Source: Jiella marina | Lineage (GTDB): Bacteria; Pseudomonadota; Alphaproteobacteria; Rhizobiales; Rhizobiaceae | Assembly: GCF_024359545.1 (NCBI RefSeq) | Contig: NZ_JAKQZG010000001.1 | Location: forward strand, 434,001 to 498,000 | Length of the DNA stretch: 64,000 bases | Direction: 5' to 3' | In this document: piece after piece, positions 25,187-57,104 of the stretch | How the letters are laid out: every line of letters starts with the position of its first letter | How positions within the stretch are numbered: the stretch's first letter is position 1 | Made by a program: the position numbers and the translations under genes | The notes under the pieces: model-generated | Database searches by the model: none | What the model saw: the letters and a program-made list of their open reading frames with translations, nothing else | Told to the model about the DNA's origin: nothing

Positions 25187-25190
25187 TCTG

Positions 25191-26405: not shown

Positions 26406-26407
26406 CG

Positions 26408-27402: not shown

Positions 27403-27566
27403 TGCGCGACTGCCTCGATCAGATCCGGCTGGCGATCGCCGAACAGCTCATCTTCCTCGCGCGACGCGTCGCGCCGAAGAACCATCCCGACACGCGGGCG
27501 ATCCTCAAGGCCCACTTCATCGTTGCCTCGCGCATTCCGGCGCCGCGGGACTGGCGGCAAAGATGA
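27402..27566 (+). CDS. Small phage protein (54 aa)
   Basis: An ATG at 27402 overlaps the previous stop as TGATG, and the stop at 27566 overlaps the next ATG. The product (MRDCLDQIRLAIAEQLIFL...) is helical and basic. Its overlap on both sides is the main support. Confidence 0.5.
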   Translation: MRDCLDQIRLAIAEQLIFLARRVAPKNHPDTRAILKAHFIVASRIPAPRDWRQR

Positions 27567-27931: not shown

Positions 27932-28170
27932 AAAACCGGATGCTGGCCGCCCTGTCGCAGGCGGCGACCCGGCAGGAAGCGGCCCGCGCCGCCGACTGCG
28001 AAAGACTGCGGCGCGACGAGGCCGAGACGATCGGATTTGCCGCCGAACACAAGCAGCACCTGGCCGACAGCTACTGGCACGAGCGCCACCGCGCCGAAAG
28101 CCGCCTGACCGCGGCAAAGGCTGTCCGCAGCGCGATCGCGGAGATCGCCGGGGAGGCGCGCCGTGGCTGA
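27928..28170 (+). CDS. Small helical phage protein (80 aa)
   Basis: The ATG at 27928 overlaps the previous stop (ATGA). The product is helical and charged, with RQEAARAADCERLRRDEAETIGFAAEHKQ and HERHRAESRLTAAKAV. It resembles a coiled-coil protein but no family is recognised. Confidence 0.55.
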   Translation: MKNRMLAALSQAATRQEAARAADCERLRRDEAETIGFAAEHKQHLADSYWHERHRAESRLTAAKAVRSAIAEIAGEARRG

Positions 28171-28435
28171 CCGACCGAACCAGGGGGTGCTGGCTTTGGC
28201 TTGCATCGTCGCAGCGGCCGGTTTTGCCGTCGCAGCCTGCACCGCCGACGCGGCCCGGCGCGACGCCGAGGTCTGGCAGGACATCGTGGAGGGCTATCGG
28301 ACGGTCATCGCGATCCAGAAGGCGACGATCGAGACACAGGAACAGACCCTGGCGACCCAGAAGGCGACGATCTGCCTTCTGAGACCCGAACTGGGCGATT
28401 GCGCAGACCCGGAAAATGAGGGTGATGATGGCTGA
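28163..28435 (+). CDS. Small lipoprotein or membrane-anchored protein (90 aa)
   Basis: A GTG start at 28163 overlaps the previous gene by 8 nt. The N-terminus is hydrophobic, and the segment VAAACTADAAR type (AGFAVAACTADA) suits a lipobox with Cys at about 27. The rest is a helical stretch with repeated TIETQEQTLATQKATI, a coiled-coil-like pattern. Possibly a small phage envelope protein, perhaps a spanin-like or exclusion factor; this is a guess. Confidence 0.5.
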   Translation: MADRPNQGVLALACIVAAAGFAVAACTADAARRDAEVWQDIVEGYRTVIAIQKATIETQEQTLATQKATICLLRPELGDCADPENEGDDG

Positions 28436-29087
28436 GAAGACGAACGAGGAGATCGCGGCAACCCTCGATCGCCCGACGACTGCGATTGATCGGCTGCGGC
28501 TCTGGCATCACGACCCGGAGACGTTTGACCCGATCTCTCACGAAGACGCCGACGAACTCCTGAAGCAGATCGACGCTGTCCTTCGGGTGAACGTGAAACC
28601 TCTTCAGTTCGAGCATCTCGGCGGTGACTTTTGGCGAGCACCAGCGCCGCTCTTCGGAAACATTCGCGTCGATCATTACGGTGAGGACTACGCAGTCACG
28701 TGGTCGGTGCCAGGGATCACGGACACGCTCGTTCCGGGCAGCTGGCCTACGGCAAATGAAGCCAAGACCGCAGCGCAAACCCATTACGAGGGCGTCGTCC
28801 TTGCCTGCCTTCAGGCAGCGCCCGCACAGACGGAAATCGATCCTGCCAAGGCCTCTCTGCAAAGCGATGTGGGTATGGCTTACGCGCGGGGAGTTGCGGC
28901 GCAGAGCGAAAGCGTTCGGCAGATGAAGCGAGAGCGCGATGACGCCCGCGAACAGACCGAGATGCTGCGCGCGGCACTAGAGCGAATAGCCACAGGTTCG
29001 AACGACCGGGTTTCAAAGAGGTACGCATCCAAGACGCTGCGTACCCTCGCCGGTCTCCCCAACAACGGAGGCAGCGACGATGGCTGA
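28428..29087 (+). CDS. Phage protein of unknown function with C-terminal coiled coil (219 aa)
   Basis: Of three ATGs (28416, 28425, 28428) the last is best spaced from GAGGG. The protein has a helical N-terminus (EEIAATLDRPTTAIDRLRLWHHDP), a beta-rich middle (LGGDFWRAPAPLFGNIRVDHYG) and a coiled-coil end (ESVRQMKRERDDAREQTEMLRAALERIA). No catalytic motif recognised. Confidence 0.6.
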   Translation: MAEKTNEEIAATLDRPTTAIDRLRLWHHDPETFDPISHEDADELLKQIDAVLRVNVKPLQFEHLGGDFWRAPAPLFGNIRVDHYGEDYAVTWSVPGITDTLVPGSWPTANEAKTAAQTHYEGVVLACLQAAPAQTEIDPAKASLQSDVGMAYARGVAAQSESVRQMKRERDDAREQTEMLRAALERIATGSNDRVSKRYASKTLRTLAGLPNNGGSDDG

Positions 29088-30159
29088 CCACACCAGCATC
29101 GAATGGACCGACGCCACCTGGAACCCGGTCACCGGCTGCGCGGTCGTCTCCCCCGGCTGCACGAACTGCTACGCCATGCGGCTCGCCGGCACGCGCCTGC
29201 AGCATCACCCGTCCCGCGCGGGCCTGACGCGGCCGTCGAAGGCCGGACCGGTCTGGACCGGCGAGGTGCGCTTCAACGAAGAATGGCTGGACCAGCCCCT
29301 GCGCTGGCGCCGCCCGCGCCGGATCTTCGTCTGCGCCCACGGCGATCTCTTCGCCGAGGGGGTCGAAGACGCCTGGATCGACCAGGTCTTCGCCGTCATG
29401 GCGCTCTGCCCGCAGCACGTCTTCCAGGTGCTGACCAAGCGGCCGGAGCGGATGCGGGAATACCTCAAAGGCACTCCGTCGAACATTCCTTACCTGGGCA
29501 GAATGCCGCTGGAGCGCATCCATTTGGCAGCCGCCGGTCACATGGAAGGAGACGGCGGATTCATGGACGCGCTGAAAGAGCACGGCAACATATACAGCCT
29601 TTATTGCTCGGTGCCCTGGCCGCTCCCCAATGTCTGGCTCGGCGTTTCTGTCGAAGACCAGACCCGTGCCAACGAGCGCATCCCGATCCTGCTCGACACG
29701 CCGGCGGCGGTGCGCTGGGTCTCGGCCGAGCCGCTGCTCGGGCCGATTGATTTCAGCAAGTTCATGTGGCCGGTCCATGGATGGTGGAGAGGCCCGCATA
29801 AGAGCTACGCTGAGGCGAAGGCCGCCGGCGCCGAATGCGGCCTGAAGCGTCAAGCACTTGTCGGGGCGTGGTGCACCTTTCTCGACTGGGTCGTCCTCGG
29901 CGGCGAGAGCGGTCCCGGCGCCCGGCCGATGCATCCCGACTGGGCCCGCGCGATCCGCGACCAATGCGCCGCCGCCGGCGTGCCGTTCCTGTTCAAGCAG
30001 TGGGGCGAATATCAGCCGGAAGAGATTGGCCGAGAAGACCCACGTTGGATCTCGCTGCCGCCGGGTCACGTGATCTACCACCGCGTCGGCAAGACCGCCG
30101 CAGGTCGCGCCCTCGACGGCGTCGTCCACGACGCCTGGCCGGAGGCGCGCCATGGCTGA
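29080..30159 (+). CDS. DUF5131 family protein (Gp37/Gp68-like)
   Basis: The 359-residue protein opens MADHTSIEWTDATWNPVTGC, the very typical start of the family. Cys positions CAVVSPGCTNCYAMRL form a radical-SAM-like CxxxxCxxC pattern, followed by IFVCAHGDLFAEGV and FQVLTKRPERM. The final part shows VVLGGESGPGARPMHPDWAR and FLFKQWGEY. The family is common in phages and is thought to be related to radical SAM enzymes; the substrate is unknown. It overlaps the preceding and following genes. Confidence 0.92.
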   Translation: MADHTSIEWTDATWNPVTGCAVVSPGCTNCYAMRLAGTRLQHHPSRAGLTRPSKAGPVWTGEVRFNEEWLDQPLRWRRPRRIFVCAHGDLFAEGVEDAWIDQVFAVMALCPQHVFQVLTKRPERMREYLKGTPSNIPYLGRMPLERIHLAAAGHMEGDGGFMDALKEHGNIYSLYCSVPWPLPNVWLGVSVEDQTRANERIPILLDTPAAVRWVSAEPLLGPIDFSKFMWPVHGWWRGPHKSYAEAKAAGAECGLKRQALVGAWCTFLDWVVLGGESGPGARPMHPDWARAIRDQCAAAGVPFLFKQWGEYQPEEIGREDPRWISLPPGHVIYHRVGKTAAGRALDGVVHDAWPEARHG

Positions 30160-43649: not shown

Positions 43650-45287
43650 TCACCCGGAAATATGCCACACAGCCCCATCACAGTAGACGAGGCTGCTGGC
43701 CTTGCCGCCTCCGACGGGCCGCCCTCGAAACGCGTTCGGATTGCTGACGCCATCGACGCGGCGCACTTCCCCTTTGCGCTCCCGGTTGCAGGGAAAATCC
43801 GCCGTCAGAGACTCGACCGTGGCCGCCTTCAGGAACTTGAAGAAGGCAAGAGAGGAGACGGCTTCCCCCGACACCCCGCCCGTTGCATCGACGCTGAAGC
43901 CATTTCCTTCGATCTGATAGGAGGAGAAGGTGCCTTCGTCGAGCTTGACGCCGACGGGGGTCGAACTCCTGACATTGACCGCAGCGGTGCTGTTCGAACC
44001 CTCGATCAAGACGCCGCTGGGTGTCTTGCTGGCAGCGCGCACTCCCGCCTCGCTGTTCGTTCCGGCAACGTCGACGCCACGCAAGGAGTTGCCCGTCGTC
44101 CGGAACGCGGCCACCTGGTTCGAACCGTTTGCCAGAAACGCCACCGGCGACATCGTGTCGTCCCGGAATCCTGCGCCTGACTGGGTGCCCTTGTTCCAGA
44201 AGCCGTAGATGGCCTTCGCGCTGTTGCGGAAGGCGGCCTCCCCCAAGGTGATCGCATCCACTCCCATATTGGTTCCCACGTCGACCCCGCGGAGGGCATG
44301 ATTGGCAGCGACCGCGATCGCCGCTCGGCGAACCGGCCACTGATCGAGTGCGGCGGAGACGGACAGACCATCCCGTAGAGCCGGGGTGCCGTCGACCTTC
44401 CGACCGTCCACCGTCCTGTAACGCGGCTGGTTCTTGGTCCCGATCGCGATGGCGTTGGTGGACGTGGTGGCGCCTTTCGGCGTGATGAGGATCACGGTAC
44501 AGGTCGATTCCCTCTCGCAATCCATTCCCGAGTTGTTGGTGAAATCGAACTCATGGTTGACGGCAAGGGGTGACGAATATCCGGACTCCAGATCGACATT
44601 GTGGGCGGCCGCCCAGCCAGGTCCCCCGCCTTTGGCGAAGACGACCGCGTTGTAGATCGATGTCTGAGCCGTGGTGGCGCCGTAGTTGATCCATCTGAGC
44701 TTCACCGTTCCATCGGCAAAGATCTGACCACTCGTGTCGGTGGGAGCCGTGGTTCCCGACGTGCCGCTCTCCTCCACCCTGTAGGTGCGATCGCCCAGAC
44801 CGTCGGCGAAAGAGATCTTGATGTTTTCGCCCCTGCGATAGCTCGTATTCGCCGACCAGCGGCGAACTGCACCGGAATTGACAACGGTCTCGATCCCCAA
44901 AGTGTTCTGCTGGGCCTCCGCGCCGGAGCCCGCCGGATTGTCGGGATCGAGAAGGCGCGTTTCGGAGCTGATTAGCAGAGAGGAAATCATGTGCCGCCAG
45001 CGGCCGTCTCCCGCCGCCTGCGGCGATCCCGTCGGAATGCACCCCAGGACAGAGCAATAGCCGACGGAATTGCCTGGAGCGAGGACGATGAGGTCGTCCA
45101 GCCTGTCGGACTTCGTCCGGCCCTGCGCTCGCTGTCCAAGGCTCCAGTCCACGGGGACGCCGTTCGGCATGAGTATCCGGCCGAGTTTCGTCTCCGGAAG
45201 CAGTTCGACATCCGGCAGTGTCTGCGCGCCAGCGGGCGATACGGCGGCGGCAAGGCTCAAAGTCAGGATCAGGAAGGCGCGAAACAT
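43650..45287 (-). CDS. Secreted protein with tail-fibre/adhesin-like repeats
   Basis: The 545-residue product has a signal peptide (MFRAFLILTLSLAAAVSPAGAQ). Residues about 130-250 hold a carbohydrate-binding-like small beta region (WSANTSYRRGENIKISFADG with YRVEESGTSGTTAPTD). From about 330 to 480 it has imperfect repeats around NSA-AVY-F-type strands (AFRNSAKAIYGFWNKG, LANGSNQVAAFRTTGNSLRGVDVAG, IEGSNSTAAVNVRSS), much like phage tail-fibre shafts. The combination of tail-fibre-like text and a signal peptide is odd. There is no phage gene nearby. Confidence 0.65.
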   Translation of the reverse strand: MFRAFLILTLSLAAAVSPAGAQTLPDVELLPETKLGRILMPNGVPVDWSLGQRAQGRTKSDRLDDLIVLAPGNSVGYCSVLGCIPTGSPQAAGDGRWRHMISSLLISSETRLLDPDNPAGSGAEAQQNTLGIETVVNSGAVRRWSANTSYRRGENIKISFADGLGDRTYRVEESGTSGTTAPTDTSGQIFADGTVKLRWINYGATTAQTSIYNAVVFAKGGGPGWAAAHNVDLESGYSSPLAVNHEFDFTNNSGMDCERESTCTVILITPKGATTSTNAIAIGTKNQPRYRTVDGRKVDGTPALRDGLSVSAALDQWPVRRAAIAVAANHALRGVDVGTNMGVDAITLGEAAFRNSAKAIYGFWNKGTQSGAGFRDDTMSPVAFLANGSNQVAAFRTTGNSLRGVDVAGTNSEAGVRAASKTPSGVLIEGSNSTAAVNVRSSTPVGVKLDEGTFSSYQIEGNGFSVDATGGVSGEAVSSLAFFKFLKAATVESLTADFPCNRERKGEVRRVDGVSNPNAFRGRPVGGGKASSLVYCDGAVWHISG

Positions 45288-45469: not shown

Positions 45470-46252
45470 CTAAACGCGCCCCGTCCCGGGGGACGTTCGG
45501 AAATCTCTCAACCAGTCGAGGCCCGAATCTGTGCCCCCGCGTGGCTTGTACTCGGCGCCGAATGACCCGGCGTAGCCAGCGGCCGCGAGCGCCGGGAGCA
45601 GTCGGTGATAGGCAATCTCTCCCTCGTCCGGCTCGGCGCGTGAAGGGACGGCAGCGAATTGCACATGGCCGATCAGGGCGCGATGGGCCTTGAAGCGTTC
45701 GAGGAGATCGCCGCCGGTGATCTGCATGTGGTAGCAGTCGAACATGATCTTGAGTTCCGGCCGGCCGAGCCGTTCGATGATGGCAACGGCCTTGTCGAGA
45801 CCGATCAGGAAATAGCCGGCGGCATCGCGCGGATTGAGCGGTTCGAGCAGGACGATCATGCCGGTGTCGCGGGCGCGATCGCAAGCGTACAGGAGATTGG
45901 CGTCGAAGACGTCGGCTGCTTGAGGATCGCTGGTCTTGCCGGCCATGACATGCACCGCCTGAGCCCCGATCGCCGAGCCATAGTCGAACGCCTCGTCGAT
46001 GGTCGAGCGGGCTTCCGCCTCGCGGCCGGGCACGGCCGACAGGCCAAAGTCGCCCTCCTTCGAGCCTTTGCGCGTGTTGAGACCCAGCATCGGCAGGCCA
46101 GTCTCCGCGAGCGCCGCCTTCACCGCCTCGCGATCCGCGTCATAGGGCCAATGGCATTCGACTGCGTCGAAGCCGGCCGCCTTGGCGCGGCAGATCGCGT
46201 CCGGCAGAGCGAGTTCGGTCCAGAGAAAGCCGAGATTGGCGGAAAAGCGCAT
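45470..46252 (-). CDS. otnI: 2-oxo-tetronate isomerase (hydroxypyruvate isomerase family)
   Basis: The 260-residue product is a TIM barrel of the Hyi/OtnI family: MRFSANLGFLWTELAL at the start, metal and substrate motifs LLEPLNPRDAAGYFL, MFDCYHMQITGG and GAEYKPRGGT (Glu, Asp, His, Glu ligands). In the D-erythronate route it converts 2-oxo-tetronate into 3-oxo-tetronate. Following OtnC by 2 nt, it closes the operon. Hydroxypyruvate isomerase is a possible alternative; the neighbours favour OtnI. Confidence 0.88.
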   Translation of the reverse strand: MRFSANLGFLWTELALPDAICRAKAAGFDAVECHWPYDADREAVKAALAETGLPMLGLNTRKGSKEGDFGLSAVPGREAEARSTIDEAFDYGSAIGAQAVHVMAGKTSDPQAADVFDANLLYACDRARDTGMIVLLEPLNPRDAAGYFLIGLDKAVAIIERLGRPELKIMFDCYHMQITGGDLLERFKAHRALIGHVQFAAVPSRAEPDEGEIAYHRLLPALAAAGYAGSFGAEYKPRGGTDSGLDWLRDFRTSPGTGRV

Positions 46253-46254
46253 GG

Positions 46255-46902
46255 TCACTCCCACTCCACATCGAATTGGCGCACGACCCGGCTCACCTCT
46301 TCGCCGGTCAGAAGCCTTGGACCCAGACCGCGGGTGATCAGGGCAAGCCGCGCGGTCGCCTCCAGCTCCTCCATGGCGTTGACCGCCGAGCCGAGATCCT
46401 TGCCCGCTACCACCGGCCCGTGATTGGCGAGCATGACGGCCGAGCGCTTGCCGGCAAGGCCGCGGATGGCATCGCCCATCGCCGGATCTCCTGGCAGGAT
46501 GAAGGGCAGAAGCTTCACCTTGCCGAGCTGCATGATCGCGTAAGGCGTCAGTGGCGGCAGCATGTCGTTGGGATCGACGTCCGGCATCATCGACAGCGCA
46601 ACCGAATGGCAAGAATGAAGATGGACCACCGCTCCGACCGTGGAGCGGGTCTCGTAGAAGGCGCGATGGAGCGGCACTTCCTTGGTCGGCTTGTCTCCGT
46701 CAAGGAGATTGCCGTCCCTGTCGAGCCGGCTGAGGCGAGCGGGATCGAGCTTGCCGAAGGAGGAGCCCGTCGGCGAGACGAGCGCTCCGCCATCTTCCAG
46801 CCGCACCGAGATGTTGCCGGTCGAACCATGGGTCAGGCCGCGATCGAAGAGCGAACGCGCGAATTCGCACATCGACTCGCGCAGTCGGGCCATCTCGCTC
46901 AT
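46255..46902 (-). CDS. otnC: 3-oxo-tetronate 4-phosphate decarboxylase (class II aldolase family)
   Basis: The 215-residue product has the class II aldolase/adducin pattern: GLTHGSTGNISVRL, SPTGSSFGKL, the metal-binding HLHSCHSVALS, and LANHGPVVAGKDL. In the erythronate/threonate route it decarboxylates the phosphorylated 3-oxo acid to dihydroxyacetone phosphate. Its start at 46902 overlaps OtnK. Confidence 0.9.
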   Translation of the reverse strand: MSEMARLRESMCEFARSLFDRGLTHGSTGNISVRLEDGGALVSPTGSSFGKLDPARLSRLDRDGNLLDGDKPTKEVPLHRAFYETRSTVGAVVHLHSCHSVALSMMPDVDPNDMLPPLTPYAIMQLGKVKLLPFILPGDPAMGDAIRGLAGKRSAVMLANHGPVVAGKDLGSAVNAMEELEATARLALITRGLGPRLLTGEEVSRVVRQFDVEWE

Positions 46903-48161
46903 TCGGGCCTCCGCTTCAGGACGGCGAGCGCTTCGGCAAAGAAGTCCTCCGCGCCGAAATTTCCGGATTTCAGCGTCAGCCAGAGCGGCCGGTCGCTCGC
47001 CTTCAAGGCGGGGACGCCGGCCGCGATTTCCGGGCCGATTTCGAGCGCCGTCAGACCCAGGCCCTCGACGACGGCGCCCGACGTCTCGCCGCCCGCCACG
47101 ACGAGGCGGGTAATGCCCGTGCTCGTGAGCTGCCGTGCGATTTCGGCGAAGAAGCCTTCGATGGCCGAGGCCACGCGCTCCTTGCCATGGCGTTCCTGCG
47201 CCGCCTTGACGGTCTCGGGATCGGCGGAGGAATAGATCAGGGGGGCGGCCTTCGAGGCTTGCGAGGACGCCCAGTCCGCGACCTCTTCCGGCTTCAGGTC
47301 GCCGGCGATCAGCCTGTCCGCGTCGATCTCGAGGGACGGATGGTCGGCGCGGTAGCGCTCGACCTGCGCCCGCGTCATGGTCGAGCAGGAGCCCGAGAGG
47401 ATCGCCGCAAGTCCGCCATCACCATGCCAGGGCGTTCGGCGCTCTTTCAAGGTCGCCGGATCGATCAGATTGGCCGGCAGACCGAGTGCAATGCCTGAGC
47501 CGCCGGTGACAAGCGCCATGTCACGCACCGCCGTGCCGATCGCGAAGAGATCATCGTCGCGGATCGCGTCGACCACGATGACCGGCCGGCCGGCCCTGGT
47601 CTCGCGGGCGAAGGCCTCTCGGATCGCCTCCGGCCCCGAAAACACCGTTTCCGATGCCACATGGCCGACGCCCTGTTTCGTCTGTGGCGTCAGCCACCGA
47701 CGCAGATCGGCATCGGTCATCGGCGTCAGCGGATGATTTTCCATGCCGCTCTCGCTGAGGAGCCTGTCCTTCACGAAGAGGTGCCCCTGATAGATGCTGC
47801 GGCCGGTGGCGGGAAAGGCCGGGCAGACGATGGTCGACTCGGCGCCGAGCCGCTCCATCAGCGCGTCGATCACCGGACCGATATTGCCTTGGGGCGTCGA
47901 ATCGAAGGTCGAGCAATATTTGAAGACGAATTGCCGGCAGCCCTGCGCGACCAGCCAGTCCAACGCGCGCAGAGATTTCTCCACCGCTTCATGGACGGGA
48001 ATGGTGCGCGACTTGAGCGCGACGACGCCTGCCTCCACGGCCGGGTCGGCCGGGCCGGTCGGAACCCCGCAATACTGCACCACCCGCATCCCGCCCTTCG
48101 CCAGCGTATTGGCAAGGTCGGAGGAGCCGGTGAAGTCGTCGCCGATGCAGCCAAGAAGCAT
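46899..48161 (-). CDS. otnK: 3-oxo-tetronate kinase (DUF1537 family)
   Basis: The 420-residue protein opens MLLGCIGDDFTGSSDLANTL, the conserved start of DUF1537 kinases, and has FKYCSTFDSTPQGNIGPV, CPAFPATGRSIYQGHLFV and the C-terminal VVAGGETSGAVVEGLG ATP-binding motif. It phosphorylates 3-oxo-tetronate at position 4. Close relatives (OiaK) phosphorylate 3-oxo-isoapionate; the sequence alone does not decide between them. Confidence 0.9.
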   Translation of the reverse strand: MLLGCIGDDFTGSSDLANTLAKGGMRVVQYCGVPTGPADPAVEAGVVALKSRTIPVHEAVEKSLRALDWLVAQGCRQFVFKYCSTFDSTPQGNIGPVIDALMERLGAESTIVCPAFPATGRSIYQGHLFVKDRLLSESGMENHPLTPMTDADLRRWLTPQTKQGVGHVASETVFSGPEAIREAFARETRAGRPVIVVDAIRDDDLFAIGTAVRDMALVTGGSGIALGLPANLIDPATLKERRTPWHGDGGLAAILSGSCSTMTRAQVERYRADHPSLEIDADRLIAGDLKPEEVADWASSQASKAAPLIYSSADPETVKAAQERHGKERVASAIEGFFAEIARQLTSTGITRLVVAGGETSGAVVEGLGLTALEIGPEIAAGVPALKASDRPLWLTLKSGNFGAEDFFAEALAVLKRRPE

Positions 48162-48193
48162 GGGAGCGCCCTTTCGTTTCCTTCAATCGAGGC

Positions 48194-49177
48194 TCAGACC
48201 GCCGAGCCCCCGCCCTCTTCTTCCAGATAAACGCGGATGATCTCGTCGAAATCGGTCTCGGCCTCAAAGCCGAGTTCGCAGGCGCGCTGCGCCTCGAAAG
48301 CCCTCGGCCAGCCCGCGACGATCCCGGCAATGGTGGCGTCCGGCTCGCGCCGGATGCGCCCGGCGGCTTCGGGTCCGACCATGCGTTCCAGGGCCGCAAT
48401 CTCTTCGCCGACGGTGGCGGCGAGACCCGGCATGGTCAGATTGCGCCGGGGCCCGACTGTCTCCAGATCGAGCGTCGCGGCGTGAATGAAGAACTCGACC
48501 GCCGCGCGCGGGCTTGCGAACCAGTGACGCACATCTTCGCCCACCGGCAGAACCGCCTCCTCGCCGTTGATCGGTTCGCGCAGGATGTTCGAGAAAAAGC
48601 CTGAGGCCGCCTTGTTCGGCTGGCCCGGTCGAATGCAGATCGTCGGCAGGCGCAGGCCGATGCCGTCGAAGAAACCCCGACGCGAATAGTCGGCCAGCAG
48701 CAGTTCGCCGATGGCCTTCTGGGTGCCGTAGCTTGTCAGCGGCGTCAGATGGAAGGAATCCGGAATGCGCTCCGGGAACGGCGCCCCGAAGACGGCGATC
48801 GAGGAAGCGAAGACCAGGCGGGGCCGGTAGCCGTCCGCCTCATGGGCGCGGCGAACGGCTTCGAACAGTTCGCGCGTGCCGTCGAGATTGATCCGGTAGC
48901 CCTTCTCGAAATCGGCCTCCGCTTCGCCGGAGACGATGGCCGCCAGATGAAAGATCACGTCGGGACGCGCGGCGATCAGCTTCTCGGCCGTGCCTTGCGA
49001 CGACAGATCGGCAACCTCGGTCTCGACGGCCGGTCTGCCCTCATTGACCGGCGGGGAAACCACGTCGACGAGATGCATCGTCCCGATTGGGCTGGCGCCG
49101 ATCCGGCCATCTGCGGCCAGCCGCTCGGCAAGCTTGCGTCCGAGCATGCCGGCCGCGCCAATGATAAGGACTTTCAT
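48194..49177 (-). CDS. denD: D-erythronate dehydrogenase (NAD-dependent epimerase/dehydratase family)
   Basis: The 327-residue product starts MKVLIIGAAGMLGRKLAERL, a Rossmann GxxGxxG motif, with HLAAIVSGEAEADFEKGYRINLDGT and the catalytic Tyr-Lys in SYGTQKAIGELLLADYS. It fits DenD, which oxidises D-erythronate to 2-oxo-D-erythronate with NAD. Placement next to OtnK, OtnC and OtnI supports this. Related oxidoreductases of other sugar acids cannot be ruled out. Confidence 0.88.
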   Translation of the reverse strand: MKVLIIGAAGMLGRKLAERLAADGRIGASPIGTMHLVDVVSPPVNEGRPAVETEVADLSSQGTAEKLIAARPDVIFHLAAIVSGEAEADFEKGYRINLDGTRELFEAVRRAHEADGYRPRLVFASSIAVFGAPFPERIPDSFHLTPLTSYGTQKAIGELLLADYSRRGFFDGIGLRLPTICIRPGQPNKAASGFFSNILREPINGEEAVLPVGEDVRHWFASPRAAVEFFIHAATLDLETVGPRRNLTMPGLAATVGEEIAALERMVGPEAAGRIRREPDATIAGIVAGWPRAFEAQRACELGFEAETDFDEIIRVYLEEEGGGSAV

Positions 49178-49227
49178 ATTCTGAGCGCTCCTTGATGGTC
49201 ACTTTTCCCCAAAACCCAACGGAACAC

Positions 49228-51174
49228 TCAGGAAAGCATGACGCGGGCGACGGCATAGGCGTCGAGATCGATATCGAGATTGGTTCCCGAGGCGGGGACA
49301 AGATCATCCATGAATGAAGGCGATCCGGCGGCCTCCACGAAGTGCTCGGCATCGAGGATTTTCATCGCGGAAATCTGGCCCGGCATCGCCACCGACTGGA
49401 GTTCCGATGTCAGATTGGCGACAAGAAGCTCAAAACCACCCTCGTCATTGCGCGCCGCCACCGCCAGGATGCGGCCGCGGTCGGACGGCGCGGTGGCAAG
49501 GAGCTTGCGACCGCCGAGCCGGGCGAGTGCACGTTCCACATGATAGACGGGGAAGAGCCCGCCTTCGCCTTCGAAATGGGGCTGCGGCCAGTCCTGCTTC
49601 ACCGAGACGACGCCATGGGCGCCGGTGGTGTCGCCGAACGCGATCGCGCTGACACCTTTCTCCGCCATCACGGCATAGTAGCCGAGCGTGAAGGCGGCGC
49701 CGATCAGACCGCGCTGGCGCGGATCGTTGCGGTTCATCGCCTGGCGGATGTTCTTCGGGTTTTCCATCGGCGCGTCGCCATAAGGGTTCATGCGCATGCC
49801 GATGGCACTCGGGCCGACCATGACCGGCTTGTCGCCGGCGATCTCGCGAGCGCTGAGGCCGATATAGGGGAGCGCCTCCAGGCTCTCGAAGACCGTCCGG
49901 TCGTCACCCGCATGGACGATCGCCGAGGTGGTAAAGCCGACGAGATCGAGATCCTCGAGCGGGGGACGCTTGCGATTGAGCTCGGTGAAGTAGGAGAACA
50001 TGCCGCCGCCGATCGCCGCCTTCGTGAAGGCCGTCCGGGCTGCGGTGTAAAGACCGGCAAGCGGAGCCGCCGGCGGCCAGGGACTGCCGGGCAGCGTCGC
50101 CTTCATGTCGGAAGCGGGAGAAACGCGCACGACCGCGAAGGGCTCGCCGATCGCCGCCACCTGCCGGCCGATCTCCGCGACCTGTTCGGCGTATCCGTCG
50201 ACCTCGTCGATCACCAGTTCGAGCCAGGCCTCGGCGCCGATCTGGCTGGCGATCTCGGCGGCTGCGGCGAGTTCCGCCTCGCCGCTTTCGCGGGGATCGT
50301 GATGGTAGACCAGAAAATCGGGTTTCAGCTTGGCGATGGTGTCGAGGGCCGAGCGGGTGGTGAGAATCTCTTCCGCCCTCAGCCCGATGCCGAACCTGGG
50401 CGCCGGCCCCTGGTCTTCCCCGAGTGCGATGCGAACGGGATCGGCGCCGCCCGCAGCCCCGGATCTCGCCGGTTCGCCCTCGACCGTGATCGTGACGGTC
50501 TGGTCCTCCAAGTCGCCGGGCTTCAGCGTATAGGGCCAGGGAAGCGCGAGCGGGCGGACATAGGTCTTGTAGGAGGCATCGGTCCAGTTGCGCTGATCCT
50601 CCATCTCGAAGGTGTCGCCTTCCATCCGACAGATCACCTTGAGACCCTCGACCGGCTCATGGGTCAGGGTTCTGAGCTCCATCATCGGCTGAAGCGGGTC
50701 GATGATCTCGGGAAAGCGCCCCTCCTCGATGCTCCCGTCCACATGCTCGATCGTCACGGGCTGGCCGCTCACGCCCTTGACCGGATGCAGGACGACGAAG
50801 CCCGTGCGGTTGGTGACGAAATCACCGGTCGCTTCGCCCTTGCCATGAAAGGTGAGGATGCGCGGCGTCCCGACGATCTCGGCGGTGTACCGGAACGACT
50901 GGCTGTCATCGCCGGCGCTGGCCTTGTAGCGCACGGTGAAGCGATCGCCTTCCTCCTCCACCGACAGTTCGTCGATGACGGCGTTGTAGGTGCCCCAGTT
51001 CCTGTCGCGAACGATGAAGGAGACGGCGCGGATGATCTCGATCCCATCGTAGCGGATGGCTCGCAGATTGCCGTTGTCCAGTTCCGCCGAGAGCTTGCCG
51101 GCCTTCAGAATGCGGGGCGGAGCGACAATCTCCTCGGTGCCGGTCAGTCGAACGGCAAGGCTCGGTTCGCTCAT
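49228..51174 (-). CDS. apnL: D-apionate lactonase-like protein (ApnL family)
   Basis: The 648-residue product matches the ApnL family as I remember it: an N-terminal beta region (LSAELDNGNLRAIRYDGIEI, then RDRNWGTYNAVIDELSVEEEGDRF and TNRTGFVVLHPVKGVSGQPV), the mark EMEDQRNWTDASYKTYVRP, a TIM-barrel-like middle (about 250-540) and a C-terminal beta domain. ApnL opens D-apionolactone to D-apionate. The neighbouring DenD-Otn genes act on four-carbon acids, so the true lactone may be another, such as erythronolactone. The name rests on family recognition. Confidence 0.75.
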   Translation of the reverse strand: MSEPSLAVRLTGTEEIVAPPRILKAGKLSAELDNGNLRAIRYDGIEIIRAVSFIVRDRNWGTYNAVIDELSVEEEGDRFTVRYKASAGDDSQSFRYTAEIVGTPRILTFHGKGEATGDFVTNRTGFVVLHPVKGVSGQPVTIEHVDGSIEEGRFPEIIDPLQPMMELRTLTHEPVEGLKVICRMEGDTFEMEDQRNWTDASYKTYVRPLALPWPYTLKPGDLEDQTVTITVEGEPARSGAAGGADPVRIALGEDQGPAPRFGIGLRAEEILTTRSALDTIAKLKPDFLVYHHDPRESGEAELAAAAEIASQIGAEAWLELVIDEVDGYAEQVAEIGRQVAAIGEPFAVVRVSPASDMKATLPGSPWPPAAPLAGLYTAARTAFTKAAIGGGMFSYFTELNRKRPPLEDLDLVGFTTSAIVHAGDDRTVFESLEALPYIGLSAREIAGDKPVMVGPSAIGMRMNPYGDAPMENPKNIRQAMNRNDPRQRGLIGAAFTLGYYAVMAEKGVSAIAFGDTTGAHGVVSVKQDWPQPHFEGEGGLFPVYHVERALARLGGRKLLATAPSDRGRILAVAARNDEGGFELLVANLTSELQSVAMPGQISAMKILDAEHFVEAAGSPSFMDDLVPASGTNLDIDLDAYAVARVMLS

Positions 51175-51218
51175 GTTCTCCTCCCAAGGTCATTCGTTTT
51201 CTTGAAGCTCTCGTGGTC

Positions 51219-52241
51219 TCAGCGATCCGTCCGGCTGCTCACCAGGCGCTCGACGAGAAGCGCCAGAATGATGATCGAGCCGATGGCCGACCCCTGCCAG
51301 AAGGGCGAAACGCCCATGAGATTGAGGCCGTTGCGGATCATCACCATGATCAAGACGCCGATCAGCGTGCCGATGATCGAGCCGCGCCCGCCATAGAGGC
51401 TCGCTCCGCCGATGACGACGGCGGCGATCGCGTCGAGTTCCATGAGATTGCCGGCGAGCGGATCGGCCGACAGGATCTGGGCGATCGAGAAGGTGATCGC
51501 CACGGCCGAAAAGGCGCCGGAGACCACGTAAGGCAGGATCGAATAGAAGAGGACGCTGAGCCCCGCCGCGCGCGCCGCCTCCTTGTTCGAGCCGATCGCA
51601 TAGATCGTCCGCCCACCCTTCGTATAGGTGAGGTAGAGCCAGGCCAGCAGGTACATCACGCCGAGAAAGAAGACATTCGCCGGGATGCCGAGGATTGTCG
51701 TGTAGACGATGTCGGAGAGGCTCGACGGAATGCCGGAAATCGCCGTCTGGCCGGAGAGGATGTAGGCGAGGCTTCGCCCGATCGCCATGACACCGAGGGT
51801 AACGACGAAGGCGGCCAGCCCGAAATAGGCGACCAGAATGCCCGACACGAGGCCGATGCCAGCACCCGCCAGGACCGCCATCATGATCGCGACCGGGATC
51901 GGATAGTCCTGCAGCGCCAGACCGAGCACGATGCCCGTCAGCCCCGCGACCGAGCCGACGGACAGATCGATGCCGCCGGTCAGGATGACGAAGGTCATGC
52001 CGATCGCGACGAGCCCGATCACCACCGACTGGTCGAGAATGTTGAAGATGTTGGTCTGGGTCAGGAAGTAGGGCGAAGCGAAGGACAGCGCGACGGCGAT
52101 GAGGAGCGCCAGCGCCAGCATGCGGAATTCGAGCCGTGTGAAGATGCGTTTGAACATGGTGCCCATGTCGAAACCGTTCGTGCTGCTGGCGCCCGCCTGG
52201 CTCCGATCCGCGCCACTCGCGGTGTTGGTCTGTTCAACCAT
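51219..52241 (-). CDS. Sugar ABC transporter permease, RbsC family
   Basis: The 340-residue product has about ten hydrophobic segments and RbsC-type text (VIGLVAIGMTFVILTGGIDLSVGSVAGL and the loop VIGGASLYGGRGSIIGTLIG, with the EAA-like segment). The start at 52241 overlaps the ATPase stop by 8 nt. It forms the import channel with the binding protein and ATPase. The substrate should be the sugar acid or lactone used by the downstream enzymes. Confidence 0.93.
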   Translation of the reverse strand: MVEQTNTASGADRSQAGASSTNGFDMGTMFKRIFTRLEFRMLALALLIAVALSFASPYFLTQTNIFNILDQSVVIGLVAIGMTFVILTGGIDLSVGSVAGLTGIVLGLALQDYPIPVAIMMAVLAGAGIGLVSGILVAYFGLAAFVVTLGVMAIGRSLAYILSGQTAISGIPSSLSDIVYTTILGIPANVFFLGVMYLLAWLYLTYTKGGRTIYAIGSNKEAARAAGLSVLFYSILPYVVSGAFSAVAITFSIAQILSADPLAGNLMELDAIAAVVIGGASLYGGRGSIIGTLIGVLIMVMIRNGLNLMGVSPFWQGSAIGSIIILALLVERLVSSRTDR

Positions 52242-54159
52242 TGAGACTCTCGATCCGTTGTCTGATCTCTTCCGCCGAGTACCCTTCTGCCCCGCCAGGC
52301 ACGGTCAGCCCCACCCAGCCGAAATCATGGCCGCGATGGCTGCGGATGGGGACGATGAGGGTCGAGCGGCTGCCGTCGGCTTCCGTCACGAAGCCCTGCC
52401 CGCGCGAGGCGAGACTCTTGGGAATGGTGGTTTCCTCGAAGCGCTTGGCTTCCCCGGAGGAGAAACCAGGCGCGGCCTCGGGATTGGCGACAACGCTGTT
52501 GAGGCAGATCAGATCGTCCTCATCGATCAGCGCCCAGAAGCCCGCTCCGCCGCAGTCGACGGCGAGCGCGCTCAGAACCGCGGTGTTCTTGCGCATCGAG
52601 GTGCGCGGGGCGGCAAGGAGCGTCAGCTTTTCCTCGTCCAGCGCCGAACTCGCCATGTCCGCAATCGACCGGCCGTCGCTGATCACGACGATGCGGGTCG
52701 ACAGGCCGAGTAGCTCTTCGAAGTCGGACGAGATGACGACCACGGCGACACCTTCCCCCGCAATCTTCTGGAGAAGCTCGTAGATCGCTTGGCGGGTGCC
52801 GATATCGACGCCCTTGGTGGGCTCGTCGAGGATCAGTACCTTGGGTTCCAGCAGCAGCCAGCGGGCGATGATGATCTTCTGCTGCATGCCGCCTGAGAAA
52901 TTGAGCATCGAGGCGTCGAACAGCCGATGGCCGGGAAGGTCGAGAAGCTTTAGGAGTTCATCGACCTTCTTCTGTCGTGCGCCGTAACCGAGGCCAAAGC
53001 CGCGATGGGCGCCGAGATGGGCGAGAAGCAGGTTCTCCTTCACCGACAGGTCCGGCACGATGTTCTGCACCCGCCGGTCTTCCGGCACGAAGCCGACGCC
53101 GGCCCTGACGGCCTGGGCGGGTTTACGGAAATCGACCTTCTTGCTGGCTAGCCACATTTCGCCGCCACTCTTGGGCCTCAGGCCGAAGATCGCCTCGGCC
53201 GTCTCCGACCGCCCCGCGCCGACGAGCCCGCCGAGCCCGAGGATTTCGCCTTTCCTGACGGCGAAGGACACGTCATGGACGACCGGCGGCGCGGCGATGT
53301 TCCTCACTTCGAAAACCACCGGTTCCCCCTCGGCGTCCGGTGCGACTTCGCGCTCGGTGTAGATCGCGCCGAGTTCACGGCCGACCATCAGGCGGATGAT
53401 CTCGGCCTGGGTCAGCGAGTGAGTTTCGAGCCCGGATGCGACCGTCGCGCCCTCGCGCATCACGGTGACCCGATCCGTGATCGCCAGCACCTCCTCCAAC
53501 CGGTGCGACACGAAGATCAGCGAGCGCCCGCTCTCCTTCAGCCGCGCCATCACGTCAAAGAGGCGCTCGACCTCGCCGGCGCTCAAGGAGGCGGTCGGTT
53601 CGTCGAAAATGATGAGTTCGGCATCAAGCGCCAGTGCTTTGGCGATCTCGACGAGCTGGCGCTGGGCGGCGGAGAGCTTGGCGACTTCCATGTCGAGGGA
53701 CAGAACATCGGCCTGGCCGAGGTCTTCCAGAATTGCAGTGGCGCGCCGGCGCATCTTGCCGCGGGAGAGGAAGCCGCTAGTGCCGAGCTCCGGCAGGAAG
53801 ATGTTCTCCAGAACGCTCAGATCCGGGGCAAGCGTCGTCTCCTGCATGACGATTGCGATGCCGGCCGACAGCGCATCGCGAGTGGAGCGCAGATGCAGCG
53901 GTTCACCCTTATGGACGAGCTTGCCGGCATCCGCACGGATGTGCCCGGAGATCACCTTGGAGAGCGTCGACTTGCCGGCGCCGTTCGCGCCCAGAAGCGC
54001 ATGAATTTCGCCTTCACGCAGATCGAACGTGGCGCCGGCCAGCGCCCGCGTGCGGCCGAAGCTCTTTTCGACATCGATGGCTTCGAGCAGCACGGCCGGC
54101 TCGTGCCTCGCTGCGCCGGTTCGTGCCGTCGACATGGCGGCATTCGATGGAGCGGTCAT
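52234..54159 (-). CDS. Sugar ABC transporter ATPase (RbsA type) with GAF-like C-terminal domain
   Basis: Starts at 54198 (GTG), 54159 or 54135 are possible; from 54159 the product has 641 residues, against about 500 for RbsA. Two ATPase halves are seen: Walker A GANGAGKST, signature LSAAQRQLVE, then degenerate second site GLVGAGRSE and NFSGGMQQKIIIARW. After about residue 517 comes a 124-residue extension with AVDCGGAGFWALIDEDDLICL and STLIVPIRSHRGHDFGWVGLTV, resembling a GAF domain. Such an extension is unusual and may sense a ligand to adjust transport. Confidence 0.88.
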   Translation of the reverse strand: MTAPSNAAMSTARTGAARHEPAVLLEAIDVEKSFGRTRALAGATFDLREGEIHALLGANGAGKSTLSKVISGHIRADAGKLVHKGEPLHLRSTRDALSAGIAIVMQETTLAPDLSVLENIFLPELGTSGFLSRGKMRRRATAILEDLGQADVLSLDMEVAKLSAAQRQLVEIAKALALDAELIIFDEPTASLSAGEVERLFDVMARLKESGRSLIFVSHRLEEVLAITDRVTVMREGATVASGLETHSLTQAEIIRLMVGRELGAIYTEREVAPDAEGEPVVFEVRNIAAPPVVHDVSFAVRKGEILGLGGLVGAGRSETAEAIFGLRPKSGGEMWLASKKVDFRKPAQAVRAGVGFVPEDRRVQNIVPDLSVKENLLLAHLGAHRGFGLGYGARQKKVDELLKLLDLPGHRLFDASMLNFSGGMQQKIIIARWLLLEPKVLILDEPTKGVDIGTRQAIYELLQKIAGEGVAVVVISSDFEELLGLSTRIVVISDGRSIADMASSALDEEKLTLLAAPRTSMRKNTAVLSALAVDCGGAGFWALIDEDDLICLNSVVANPEAAPGFSSGEAKRFEETTIPKSLASRGQGFVTEADGSRSTLIVPIRSHRGHDFGWVGLTVPGGAEGYSAEEIRQRIESLNG

Positions 54160-54231
54160 CCCGATCGGTCCCGACAACCCGTCGGCAAAGGGGAACACGA
54201 CACCGAGCGCCCCTTTCCGACAACAGAGAAA

Positions 54232-54256
54232 CCCGGCCGGCTTGCCGCCGGCCGGG
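54232..54256 (-). promoter_or_regulatory. Intercistronic hairpin between binding-protein and ATPase genes
   Basis: CCCGGCCGGC and GCCGGCCGGG (54232-54241 and 54247-54256) enclose a 5-nt loop, followed leftward by TTTCTCTG. Such hairpins often protect upstream mRNA or partly terminate, giving more binding protein than transporter. Confidence 0.75.
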
Positions 54257-54274
54257 AGCCGACGAGCCTCAGGC

Positions 54275-55261
54275 TCACTCCATTTCGTTGGCGAAGACGG
54301 TTTCCTTCACCGTCGGAAGGACGTCCTCGATGTTCTTCGAGGTGACGACCAGGATCGGCACGACGATTTCCTTGTCCGGGGTTTCGCCGTCGAGGTGCTG
54401 GAAGAGAGCCTCGGCCGATTTCTGGCCCATCAGGTAAGGCTGCTGCATGCCCGAGGCGACGATCTCGCCGGACTTCAGGAGATCGACGAATTCCGGAATG
54501 CCGTCGAAGGCCGCGACCAGAACCTCGCCCTGGCGCCTTGCGGCGCGGATCGCCCGGAGCGCGCCGATCGCCGGCTGATCGGTCTGGACGAAGAGACCGC
54601 GCATGCCGGGATTGGCGGTGAGCATGTCCTGCACGAACTTGAAGGTCTCGTCGGCCGTATAGGACTGCATCTGCTGGAGACCGGCCTCCTCGCCGGTCAC
54701 GCCGCCTTCCTGAATCCCGTCACGGAAGCCCTTGGTGCGGGCCTGACCGTTCTTGCGGGCCTGAGAGATGGTGACGAGGCCGACCGAGCCGTCCGCCCAG
54801 TCCTTTTCCTTCATCGCCTCCGCAAGCGCCTCGCCGACGCCCTTGGCGCCTTCATAGTTGTCGGAGATGATGAAGGAGACGTATTCGCCCTCATTGGTGC
54901 CGATGTCGGCGATCACGACAGGGATATCGTTCTGCTTCGCAAGCTGCAGGACGCTCGGTGCCGTGGAGGAATCGGTCGGCGAGATGATGATGCCGGCGAC
55001 CCCGCGGGCGATTGCGTCCTGCGCATTCTGAAGCTGCGTCTGGGCGTTGTTGCGCGAATCCAGCGCCTGGTAGCCGTACCCGTTCTCCTTGGCGACGGAC
55101 TCGACGCCTTTCGACAGGTAGCGCCAGAACGGCAGGTCGAGGCCGGGCGTCAGATAGACGATCTCCTGCGACTGGGCGCTCGCCGGCGCCATGCCTGCGA
55201 AGCCAATACCGGCCGACAGCGCCACAGCGGCCGCCGCCTTCAGGAAATTGCGTTTCAACAT
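54275..55261 (-). CDS. Sugar ABC transporter substrate-binding protein, RbsB type
   Basis: The start at 55261 follows a GGGAGGAG site, and the product has 328 residues with a signal peptide (MLKRNFLKAAAAVALSAGIGF). The periplasmic-binding fold is recognised by ARGVAGIIISPTDSS, IPVVIADIGTN, KGFRDGIQ and FDGIPEFVDLLKSG. It captures the sugar acid substrate for the adjacent transporter. The ending PTVKETVFANEME is ordinary. Confidence 0.94.
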   Translation of the reverse strand: MLKRNFLKAAAAVALSAGIGFAGMAPASAQSQEIVYLTPGLDLPFWRYLSKGVESVAKENGYGYQALDSRNNAQTQLQNAQDAIARGVAGIIISPTDSSTAPSVLQLAKQNDIPVVIADIGTNEGEYVSFIISDNYEGAKGVGEALAEAMKEKDWADGSVGLVTISQARKNGQARTKGFRDGIQEGGVTGEEAGLQQMQSYTADETFKFVQDMLTANPGMRGLFVQTDQPAIGALRAIRAARRQGEVLVAAFDGIPEFVDLLKSGEIVASGMQQPYLMGQKSAEALFQHLDGETPDKEIVVPILVVTSKNIEDVLPTVKETVFANEME

Positions 55262-55314
55262 GTCTTTTCTCCTCCCTTTCGACACGGCTCCTTTGACCGG
55301 GAACCCTCGGCAGA

Positions 55315-56148
55315 TCAGCGCCTCCCCGGCGGCAAGGTGCCACCATCAAGCACCGAAACATCCTGACCGGCGATTCCTCCTCCGGCGGTCAGGATGGTGA
55401 TTGTGGTCTGATAGATGCGATTGAGGTGGATCTCGAAGGCACGGATCGTGCGCTCGGCATCGCGCGACTTCAGCGCTCCGACGATCGCCTGGTGATCGCG
55501 ATAGCTCCTTTCGATCGCACCCGGCTCGGCAACAGCCCGATGGCGGTGCTCCATCATGAACCCGTAAAGATCACCCACGAAATCCGCGAGCGCTGCGTTG
55601 CCGCAGGAACGATAGACCGCCAGGTGGAATTCCCGGTCGATGATCAGAAACCGGACCGGATCTTCCATCGCCTTGCGCTGCGCCTTGAGCGACTCTTCCA
55701 GGAAGCCGATCGTCTGATCCTCGATCCGCGTCGCCGCATCGGCGACCACCTGCCGCTCGACCAGCCAACGCGAGGCATGAATGTCCTCGATATCGTAACT
55801 GTTGATGCGCTTGGCTTCGCGCAGTCCGACGAAATCCGCCCCGACATCGTCGGATATCACCTTGGTTCGGGCGCCATGGACCACGGCCAGCAGACCCTTG
55901 GCGGCCAGAATCTGGATTCCGCCCCTCACCGTCTCGCGGCTCACCTGAAGCGCGGCGGCGAGTTCGCGCTCGCTCGGCAGGGAATCCCCGACCTTGAGGA
56001 GGCCTGAGGCGATCAGCGCCGCGAGCTTTGCAGCCACCACGTCGCGCACGCTGTGGCGCAGGATGGCTTCGCGCAGTTGCGGTGCGTTCTCCAGGACATA
56101 CTCGGTCAGAGACATCAGCGACGAAACTACCTTGATCTTCTGGTCCAT
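55315..56148 (-). CDS. GntR/FadR-family regulator of the erythronate/apionate operon
   Basis: The 277-residue product has a GntR helix-turn-helix (KLAALIASGLLKVGDSLPSERELAAALQVSRETVRGGI) followed by an FCD ligand domain with His and Asp/Arg metal pattern (DREFHLAVYRSCGN, RDHQAIVGALKSRD). It is the first gene of the leftward operon and probably represses it until a sugar acid binds. The start codon lies inside an inverted repeat, suggesting self-control. Confidence 0.92.
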   Translation of the reverse strand: MDQKIKVVSSLMSLTEYVLENAPQLREAILRHSVRDVVAAKLAALIASGLLKVGDSLPSERELAAALQVSRETVRGGIQILAAKGLLAVVHGARTKVISDDVGADFVGLREAKRINSYDIEDIHASRWLVERQVVADAATRIEDQTIGFLEESLKAQRKAMEDPVRFLIIDREFHLAVYRSCGNAALADFVGDLYGFMMEHRHRAVAEPGAIERSYRDHQAIVGALKSRDAERTIRAFEIHLNRIYQTTITILTAGGGIAGQDVSVLDGGTLPPGRR

Positions 56149-56160
56149 CCACCGGACCAG
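56140..56160. promoter_or_regulatory. Probable GntR operator overlapping its own start
   Basis: CTGGTCC, 7-bp spacer, GGACCAG; the start ATG (56146-56148) falls in the spacer and left arm. The TGGT..ACCA ends agree with the FadR-type core, though the spacing is wider. Confidence 0.6.
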
Positions 56161-56471
56161 TGCGGAAACTATCGATCATGGGCCCGGGGGCTGTCAACCG
56201 CGCCCTCCGTGAGCCCGCCCGTCTCCGGGCACAGACCGCCCTCACCCCGTCTGCATCCGATCGCGCCTTCGATTGATGGATTTCACCGGGGAGCCATAGC
56301 GGCCGGAGCACCCGCGGGATTGCCGGAAATGCCATGTTGGAGAGACGCACCGTGCAGTTGTCGATGGAAAGCCCCGTGCGACGCTCGTCGGCCTTGCTGT
56401 CAGCCCGGACGTTCGTCTGTCCGCTTCGGCCTCACCCGAAGGTTATCCAATCTCTCAATGGTCGCGGTGGC
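56149..56471. other. 323-bp intergenic region with promoter for the den operon
   Basis: Between the GntR start and the end of the TetR gene. Beyond the inverted repeat at 56140-56160 I see no second strong site, no gene and no RNA structure. Confidence 0.4.
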
Positions 56472-57104
56472 TCACGCGTCCCGTTCGGCCAGCCTTGCCT
56501 CGAAGCGCGCCATTTCGATCTGCGGCGGGCGTTTGCCCGTGTAGATCTCGACATAGTTCGGAAACCGCTTCAGCCGCTCCTCCAGGGTCTCTTCCGTGCG
56601 CATCGAGATGTAGCCCACCTGGACGAGATAGATCGTGCGAGCCCTGACGTCGGCGTCGTCGCCGTCATGTCCCCAGGCCTTGAGCATGGTCACAAGTCCT
56701 TCGAGGCGCCTGGCATCAGCCTCCTGAACACGATCGAGGACTCTTGCGTCCTGTTGCGCCCAGGCCCGAACGGCGAGTTCCAGACGGGAATCGAAACTCG
56801 TTTCTCCGAGGAAGGTGCTGATCACGTTCAGCATCGCTTCGGTCTCGGTGGCAGCGAATTCTGTCGTTGCAGCCAGCAGACGCCCGGTCGTGCTTTGATC
56901 CCAGCGCTCGAGCAAAGCATCAAGCAATTGCTGCCGGTCCTTGAAAAACCAGTAGAAACTCGTTCTCGACAAATTCAGTCTCTTGCCGAGCGGCTGAATC
57001 TTCACCGCCTCGACACCGCTTTCGATCAGAGCCTCATAGGCCGCGTCGAGCCAAACCTCGCGCGAACCCCGCCAGCCCTTGTCGTCGTGATTCTCGTCAT
57101 TCAT
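56472..57104 (-). CDS. TetR-family transcriptional regulator
   Basis: The ATG at 57104 gives 210 residues; earlier GTG and TTG starts exist. A TetR helix-turn-helix is seen in residues about 12-60 (REVWLDAAYEALIESGVEAVKIQPLGKRLNLSRTSFYWFFKDRQQLLDALL). The C-terminal ligand domain has no recognisable motif. It is divergent from the flavoprotein gene at 57335 across a 230-bp gap and probably regulates it. The ligand may be a betaine or N-methylated amine. Confidence 0.9.
   Translation of the reverse strand: MNDENHDDKGWRGSREVWLDAAYEALIESGVEAVKIQPLGKRLNLSRTSFYWFFKDRQQLLDALLERWDQSTTGRLLAATTEFAATETEAMLNVISTFLGETSFDSRLELAVRAWAQQDARVLDRVQEADARRLEGLVTMLKAWGHDGDDADVRARTIYLVQVGYISMRTEETLEERLKRFPNYVEIYTGKRPPQIEMARFEARLAERDA

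Follow-up and report, generated by a model that had tools for sequence, protein, structure and literature searches.

In the Jiella marina genome (assembly GCF_024359545.1, contig NZ_JAKQZG010000001.1), we analyzed a stretch of 64,000 nucleotides, positions 434,001 to 498,000 of the forward strand, called the window below, in which nine minus-strand genes spanning positions 45470-56148 make up one leftward operon with short gaps and several overlaps. Gene coordinates, NCBIfam and Pfam bear out the gene content given by an initial annotation, i.e., a regulator, a ribose-type importer, a relative of the D-apionate lactonase ApnL, and a DenD/Otn set of erythronate enzymes. In our judgement the chances are about even that the substrate taken up through this operon is a neutral lactone of a small sugar, with D-erythrono-1,4-lactone the likeliest candidate, and that it is opened and converted to dihydroxyacetone phosphate (DHAP). 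With slightly less confidence, we suggest that it represents a dedicated four-carbon aldonolactone system, in which a ribose-family importer with a metabolite-sensing IclR/GAF-like ATPase domain feeds a lactonase of ApnL descent at the head of the erythronate pathway, and that this system has been passed on largely as a unit among alphaproteobacteria.

In the proposed route, the ribose-family ABC importer would bring in the neutral lactone, most likely D-erythrono-1,4-lactone, and the ApnL-like enzyme would hydrolyze it to D-erythronate. DenD would then oxidize C2 to give 2-oxo-tetronate, OtnI would shift the carbonyl to C3, OtnK would phosphorylate the 3-oxo-tetronate, and OtnC would decarboxylate the product to DHAP and CO2. 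The established roles of DenD, OtnI, OtnK and OtnC underlie the last four steps, and the substrate of each enzyme in J. marina is predicted. Oxidation of D-erythronate to 2-oxo-tetronate by DenD is stated in the part of PMC10580937 available to us. The GntR/FCD protein would control the operon in response to some ligand, and the IclR/GAF-like tail of the ATPase probably senses a metabolite and gates import. All steps from the lactone to DHAP are encoded in the operon, and there is no known apionate enzyme among its genes; among accounts that involve all genes of the operon and none besides, this is the simplest. Of the two substrates offered by the initial annotation, an erythronolactone-like lactone or a branched acid, the former is better supported, by this complete route, by the ligand site of the importer and by the presence of OtnK in all 24 genomes of this type that were examined (see below), and the branched acid less so.

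Families were called by comparing whole-protein NCBIfam scores to the curated cut-offs, and the domains of the importer and regulator by Pfam. DenD (with a solved structural relative, 2hrz), OtnK and OtnC all exceed their cut-offs, so that in what had been called a full DenD/OtnK/OtnC/OtnI set the four genes are indeed present and three of them pass, but OtnI stays under its own threshold (Table 1). OtnK reaches 133 bits of 700 with the OiaK model. The J. marina genome, in 41 contigs and 99% complete, contains one match to the OtnK model and one to the OtnI model at E<=1e-5, in each case the gene of the operon. L-threonate dehydrogenase (LtnD) over cut-off was not found in this genome (best 184 of 350 bits), on which ground an L-threonate route was rejected for it, nor was OiaX over cut-off (best 141 of 700 bits). 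The D-apiose genes OiaK and OiaX were not found in the operon; ApsD and ApnO were not searched genome-wide.

The pairing of ApnL with DenD and Otn, which the initial annotation had not expected, recurs in alphaproteobacteria and is not peculiar to the J. marina genome. We compared 92 ApnL loci (numbered L below), consisting of the 80 best of at least 585 confirmed relatives, 11 loci from a class-wide sample, and the window. A gene was counted as present if matched above identity thresholds of our own setting within the stretch of DNA available for the locus; several loci are short contigs, so a missing neighbor is no proof of absence. In a tree of 88 ApnL proteins, from which L030, L042, L048, L057 and L063 were left out because the gene was split or shortened in calling (these are counted as "other"), the window protein falls in a clade of 33 loci with SH-aLRT support of 99. 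A separate clade of 29 loci, also with support of 99, is of the D-apiose type, with OiaX and OiaK in 28 of the 29. DenD is present in 19 of the 33 window-clade loci, in none of the 29 D-apiose-clade loci and in two of the 30 others (L042 and L063, relatives outside the tree), and OtnK in 13/33, 1/29 and 2/30, respectively; the Fisher probabilities for the window clade versus the D-apiose clade, with kinship not corrected for, are 2e-7 for DenD and 7e-4 for OtnK. Routine placement of ApnL with den/otn genes in D-apionate loci, which would have refuted the reading of the initial annotation, is not observed.

The binding protein, ATPase and permease accompany ApnL in 26/33 window-clade loci. Jiella avicenniae, the nearest relative (L020, 77% identity in ApnL), keeps all nine genes, Jiella sonneratiae, the second-nearest (L021, 73%), all except DenD, and members of three orders, Hyphomicrobiales, Rhodobacterales and Rhodospirillales (each order verified for one species), have DenD immediately after ApnL, all of which places the arrangement beyond chance. 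Chance adjacency of ApnL and DenD/Otn was rejected on the recurrent arrangement and the clade counts. The regulator, importer, ApnL, DenD and OtnK/C/I are complete in the window, L020, L046, L066 and L043; OtnI is missing from the set in L045, and the importer and OtnC in L041. Seven further loci (L022, L029, L030, L033, L037, L047 and L132) have the importer and ApnL with neither DenD nor Otn genes nearby. Pairwise identities of ApnL run parallel to those of the GntR protein (r 0.90, 21 loci), DenD (r 0.86, 19 loci) and the binding protein (r 0.80, 26 loci), and more weakly to those of OtnK (r 0.63, 15 loci) and OtnI (r 0.58, 12 loci); for every gene pair, none of 1000 permutations was as high. 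It follows that ApnL and DenD largely share their inheritance with the regulator and the importer, and the Otn genes do so more loosely.

The importer has the domain make-up of the ribose type (Peripla_BP_4 binding protein, BPD_transp_2 permease and tandem ATPase), where "ribose-type" is the name of a protein family, not of the ligand. Alignment with ribose-binding protein (PDB structure 1drj) indicates that the binding protein retains the equivalents of F15, D89, R141, D215 and Q235, and has L, I and T at the equivalents of N13, R90 and N190; we take all of these to be ligand-site positions in ribose-binding protein. Among importer-clade proteins, 26 are complete at these positions; 25 of them show the L, I, T combination and one, L042, shows V, I, T (L082 is incomplete), whereas five binding proteins from apiose loci keep N, R, N. 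These shared sites suggest that the ligand is probably the same across the clade and probably neither apiose nor ribose, and their changes would fit a less hydroxylated molecule. In L043, from Rhodobacteraceae, the ABC importer is found together with a TRAP-type binding protein, DenD, an LtnD homolog (55% identity to an LtnD over cut-off) and OtnK/C/I. This fits uptake of the neutral form by the ABC system and of the acid by TRAP, and DenD and the LtnD homolog appear to share the one OtnK/C/I set. The ligand site and the separate TRAP protein of L043, together with the fact that the operons of the window, L020, L046 and L066 encode no sugar dehydrogenase, point to a lactone as the imported form.

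The ATPase has about 125 extra C-terminal residues, conserved in the 25 related ATPases aligned (picked as longer than 580 residues; the shortened L030 call was left out). No Pfam match to this tail was detected in the two proteins tested. Its model (pLDDT 83.6) matches IclR effector-binding domains of the GAF type in Foldseek, with a best E of 1.2e-5, query-length TM-scores of 0.41-0.62 among the matches listed and many gaps, so that the predicted IclR/GAF-like fold class is fair, not certain. A profile of the tail finds it in four of 385 genomes of the class, each time about 1 kb from ApnL. The tail is new to us; a literature search on GAF tails in transporter ATPases gave nothing relevant by title among the matches listed, which by itself does not establish novelty.

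At the genome level, 24 genomes of the window type, that of L030 included, were examined for OtnK and DenD; the window-clade genomes of L023, L034, L036, L038, L039, L044 and L049 are outside this set. OtnK over cut-off, adjacent to ApnL or elsewhere, occurs in 24/24 of these, versus 49/385 in the class sample (which includes the genomes of the window, L132 and L133, as well as that of L032, with the same contig matches as G340). DenD is located beside ApnL in 16 of the 24, and the remaining eight all have DenD over cut-off elsewhere; in the class sample, 84/385 genomes have such a DenD. ApnL is present in 14 genomes of the class sample, and OtnK in 11 of these 14 compared to 38 of the remaining 371.

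Several observations weigh against the lactone route as we propose it. DenD is absent from 14 and OtnK from 20 of the 33 window-clade loci in the available stretch. In the class sample, OtnK is found in 4/4 window-type genomes and in 7/10 genomes with other ApnL proteins (p 0.51); since the latter have OtnK similarly, its presence in the genome shows that the pathway is there but not a specific link, and clade-specific co-occurrence at this level was dropped. The match of the operon's OtnI to its model spans nearly the whole model, though under cut-off, and nine of the ten OtnI proteins tested from other ApnL loci likewise score 246-295 bits, under 325. The OtnI proteins that pass (L026, the tenth of these, 353 bits; and L024, 355 bits) both pair with LtnD, and yet that of L043 scores 295 bits although this locus too has an LtnD homolog alongside. 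A possible cause of the divergence of OtnI is the configuration at C3 in the intermediate formed from erythronate, or else a different substrate. DenD proteins 62-71% identical are found away from ApnL, some of them near IlvD/EDD dehydratases, and therefore DenD alone does not fix the substrate. L039, with an ApnL of the window clade, adjoins OiaX- and OiaK-like genes and a Gfo/Idh/MocA dehydrogenase, presumably ApsD-like, i.e., it stands in a D-apiose-type locus, because of which the window clade may accept apionolactone. Finally, SDR (short-chain dehydrogenase/reductase) or aldo/keto reductase genes in some loci suggest a sugar as the imported form there.

This last point leads to the best of the alternatives, which we consider possible but clearly less probable than lactone import. 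Here the imported ligand would be a four-carbon sugar, erythrose or threose, and a dehydrogenase, whose gene is next to the operon in some species and at another site in the J. marina genome, would oxidize it to the lactone, after which ApnL, DenD and Otn would act as proposed. In L023-L028 (Kaistia, Bosea and others), DenD does have two SDR-type genes after it, with OtnC, OtnK and LtnD also nearby in L024, L026 and L028; in L031 and L036, a gene before the importer encodes an aldo/keto reductase, in L031 with a fuculose-phosphate-type aldolase and an FGGY kinase ahead of it. The binding protein belongs to a sugar-binding family and keeps the five sites named above. On the other hand, the four operons of the window, L020, L046 and L066 have no such dehydrogenase, and the ligand-site residues are identical in loci with and without one.

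The second alternative, which we regard as improbable, has D-apionate or a related branched-chain acid as the substrate. In known apionate pathways ApnO performs oxidation and rearrangement. In this version, ApnL would open apionolactone, DenD and the divergent OtnI would replace ApnO, and OtnK and OtnC would follow. In favor of it are family membership of the ApnL-like protein, the divergence of OtnI, and the position of L039 beside OiaX and OiaK. The match of the ApnL-like protein to NF049900 is nearly full-length (residues 8-597 on model positions 3-593), but the score is under the equivalog cut-off, so the protein is not filed as a D-apionate lactonase; a representative ApnL from an OiaX/OiaK locus attains 948 bits. 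A true D-apionate lactonase at the window locus was rejected because of this score and the lack of OiaK and OiaX. The polar residues E190, E192, D193, R195, D199, K203, E398, N400, R401, H421, D424 and others are invariant in all 44 aligned proteins and are kept in the ApnL-like protein of the operon, which is an indirect check on the loss of ApnL catalytic residues that the initial annotation named as a refutation; we know of no published catalytic residues of ApnL. In the 23 window-clade proteins compared, M165, F414 and A457 replace K, H and T, respectively, of the D-apiose type (8/8), and F414 and A457 are at the ends of predicted strands. These changes would suit a ligand lacking the branch, as a lead only. 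L039 shares all three, and the clade-typical residues at nearly all compared sites, which counts against the lactone route and weakens the claim that M164, M165, F414 and A457 fix the substrate. Further evidence against the branched acid comes from OtnK and OtnC passing the tetronate cut-offs, the low score of OtnK with the OiaK model, the absence of OiaX and OiaK from the operon, a ligand site of the importer unlike that of the five apiose-locus importers, and the apparent sharing of one OtnK/C/I set in L043.

It is quite unlikely that the ApnL-like gene is a passenger in an ordinary erythronate operon: the DenD/Otn set is complete without it, but all four occurrences of the ATPase tail in the class sample are beside ApnL, and the three importer proteins go with ApnL in most of the window clade, as counted above. 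Least probable of all is that the ApnL-like protein is a glycosidase that acts on an imported plant glycoside and releases erythronate or its lactone; for this one may cite glycosides of a methyl threonolactone reported from a plant (in the part of PMC7321231 available to us) and resemblance of the fold to GH36, GH97 and GH51 glycosidases, but NCBI names the family lactonase and the fold similarity is remote (AlphaFold model with pLDDT 93.7; Foldseek query-length TM-score 0.23-0.43 and identity 7-13% among the 50 matches listed). Pfam gives no match to the protein at E<=0.001, nor does a sequence search of PDB at E<=1.

The neighborhoods of other ApnL genes vary as well. In L050 (2541-13330), outside the window clade, ApnL is followed by OtnK-OtnC and preceded by a different importer, an aldolase of the HpaI type and a 2-hydroxyacid dehydrogenase; L058 (3695-11956) likewise combines ApnL with a different importer, an HpaI-type aldolase and a dehydrogenase for 2-hydroxyacids. 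Judged by gene content, this looks like a further ApnL route, and with such variation the ApnL family seems to serve several routes.

Carter et al. reportedly described the oxidative D-apiose pathway with ApnL (2018, Nat Chem Biol), and the D-erythronate pathway DenD-OtnI-OtnK-OtnC is said to be the work of Zhang et al. (2016). In the portions of the papers available to us, Carter et al. 2018 is cited in PMC6302742, a D-apiose cluster of the usual make-up is described in PMC11747546, and an erythronate operon of Brucella with a DeoR-family regulator and an mfs gene in PMC10580937. The window shares with the oxidative D-apiose pathway an ApnL-family lactonase with its invariant polar residues and a nearby sugar-type ABC importer, but its ApnL belongs to a distinct clade and scores under the cut-off, the operon has neither OiaK nor OiaX, and the importer, of another subfamily, differs in its ligand site and has an additional domain on its ATPase. 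With the D-erythronate pathway it shares all four enzymes, three of them over the NCBI cut-offs; a lactonase and a ribose-family ABC importer are added, and OtnI is divergent. In contrast to the Brucella operon, as far as described in the accessible part of PMC10580937, the regulator is of the GntR/FCD family. Like RbsABC, the window importer consists of binding protein, permease and double ATPase domains, but its ATPase is longer by the IclR/GAF-like domain and three ligand-site residues are changed. No description of ApnL with DenD/Otn, and no catabolic gene set for such lactones, was found in the literature searched, which took in few subscription journals. To our knowledge no catabolic gene set has been assigned to these lactones. 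The enzymes are of known kinds, the combination and the window clade are new to us, and the proposed chemistry adds a short and plausible piece to a known pathway.

Table 1. Features of the operon in the window, in order of position
Feature	Position	Strand	Basis
OtnI-type 2-oxo-tetronate isomerase, divergent, 260 aa	45470..46252	-	NF043033 249 bits, cut-off 325
OtnC, 3-oxo-tetronate 4-phosphate decarboxylase, 215 aa	46255..46902	-	NF043034 298 bits, cut-off 250 passed
OtnK, 3-oxo-tetronate kinase, 420 aa	46899..48161	-	NF043035 585 bits, cut-off 350 passed
DenD, D-erythronate dehydrogenase type, 327 aa	48194..49177	-	NF043036 383 bits, cut-off 325 passed
ApnL-like lactonase, 648 aa, beta-sandwich and barrel-like domain	49228..51174	-	NF049900 634.5 bits, cut-off 750
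ABC permease, ribose type, 340 aa	51219..52241	-	PF02653
ABC ATPase, ribose type, extra C-terminal IclR/GAF-like domain (~52234-52610)	52234..54198	-	PF00005, two stretches
Stem-loop of 10 pairs, G+C, between binding-protein and ATPase genes	54232..54256	-	stem-loop scan
Periplasmic binding protein, ribose family	54275..55261	-	PF13407 and gene call
GntR/FCD regulator	55315..56148	-	PF00392 and PF07729

Genes were called with a codon-score caller. OtnI starts at ATG 46252, two bases beyond the OtnC stop; the binding protein is taken to start at ATG 55261, which gives a signal-peptide-like N terminus, within an open frame that begins at GTG 55285. The stem-loop at 54232-54256 perhaps raises the amount of binding protein; terminator-like sites in the region number 5, with 6.6 expected, i.e., not above chance. 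Two simple GntR-type palindromes were sought over 54191-56600 and no site was found. Directly downstream of the operon, a minus-strand gene (43650-45287) codes for a 545-residue protein with no Pfam match at E<=1e-5. Elsewhere in the window, a run of mostly short plus-strand genes (22119-30159), which includes a DNA polymerase III beta-clamp-like protein (25191-26405) and a DUF5131 protein (29080-30159), looks mobile or phage-like.

The J. marina genome encodes a second DenD on contig C12 (locus L143, 8756-15477), together with two SDRs, a GntR/FCD regulator, a hydroxyisobutyrate-dehydrogenase-like protein and an IlvD/EDD dehydratase. Our DenD tree was built from the 30 top-scoring matches of the class and is thereby biased away from window-like DenDs; among 17 further loci viewed separately, relatives of this dehydratase are near DenD in L146, L147, L155, L161 and L162, which, from gene proximity, hints at another DenD pathway.

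For much of the window clade, "D-apionate lactonase" may be the wrong name. The analysis predicts a testable lactone entry route into the erythronate pathway, and an IclR/GAF-like domain built into a transporter ATPase would be a possible new way to gate import.

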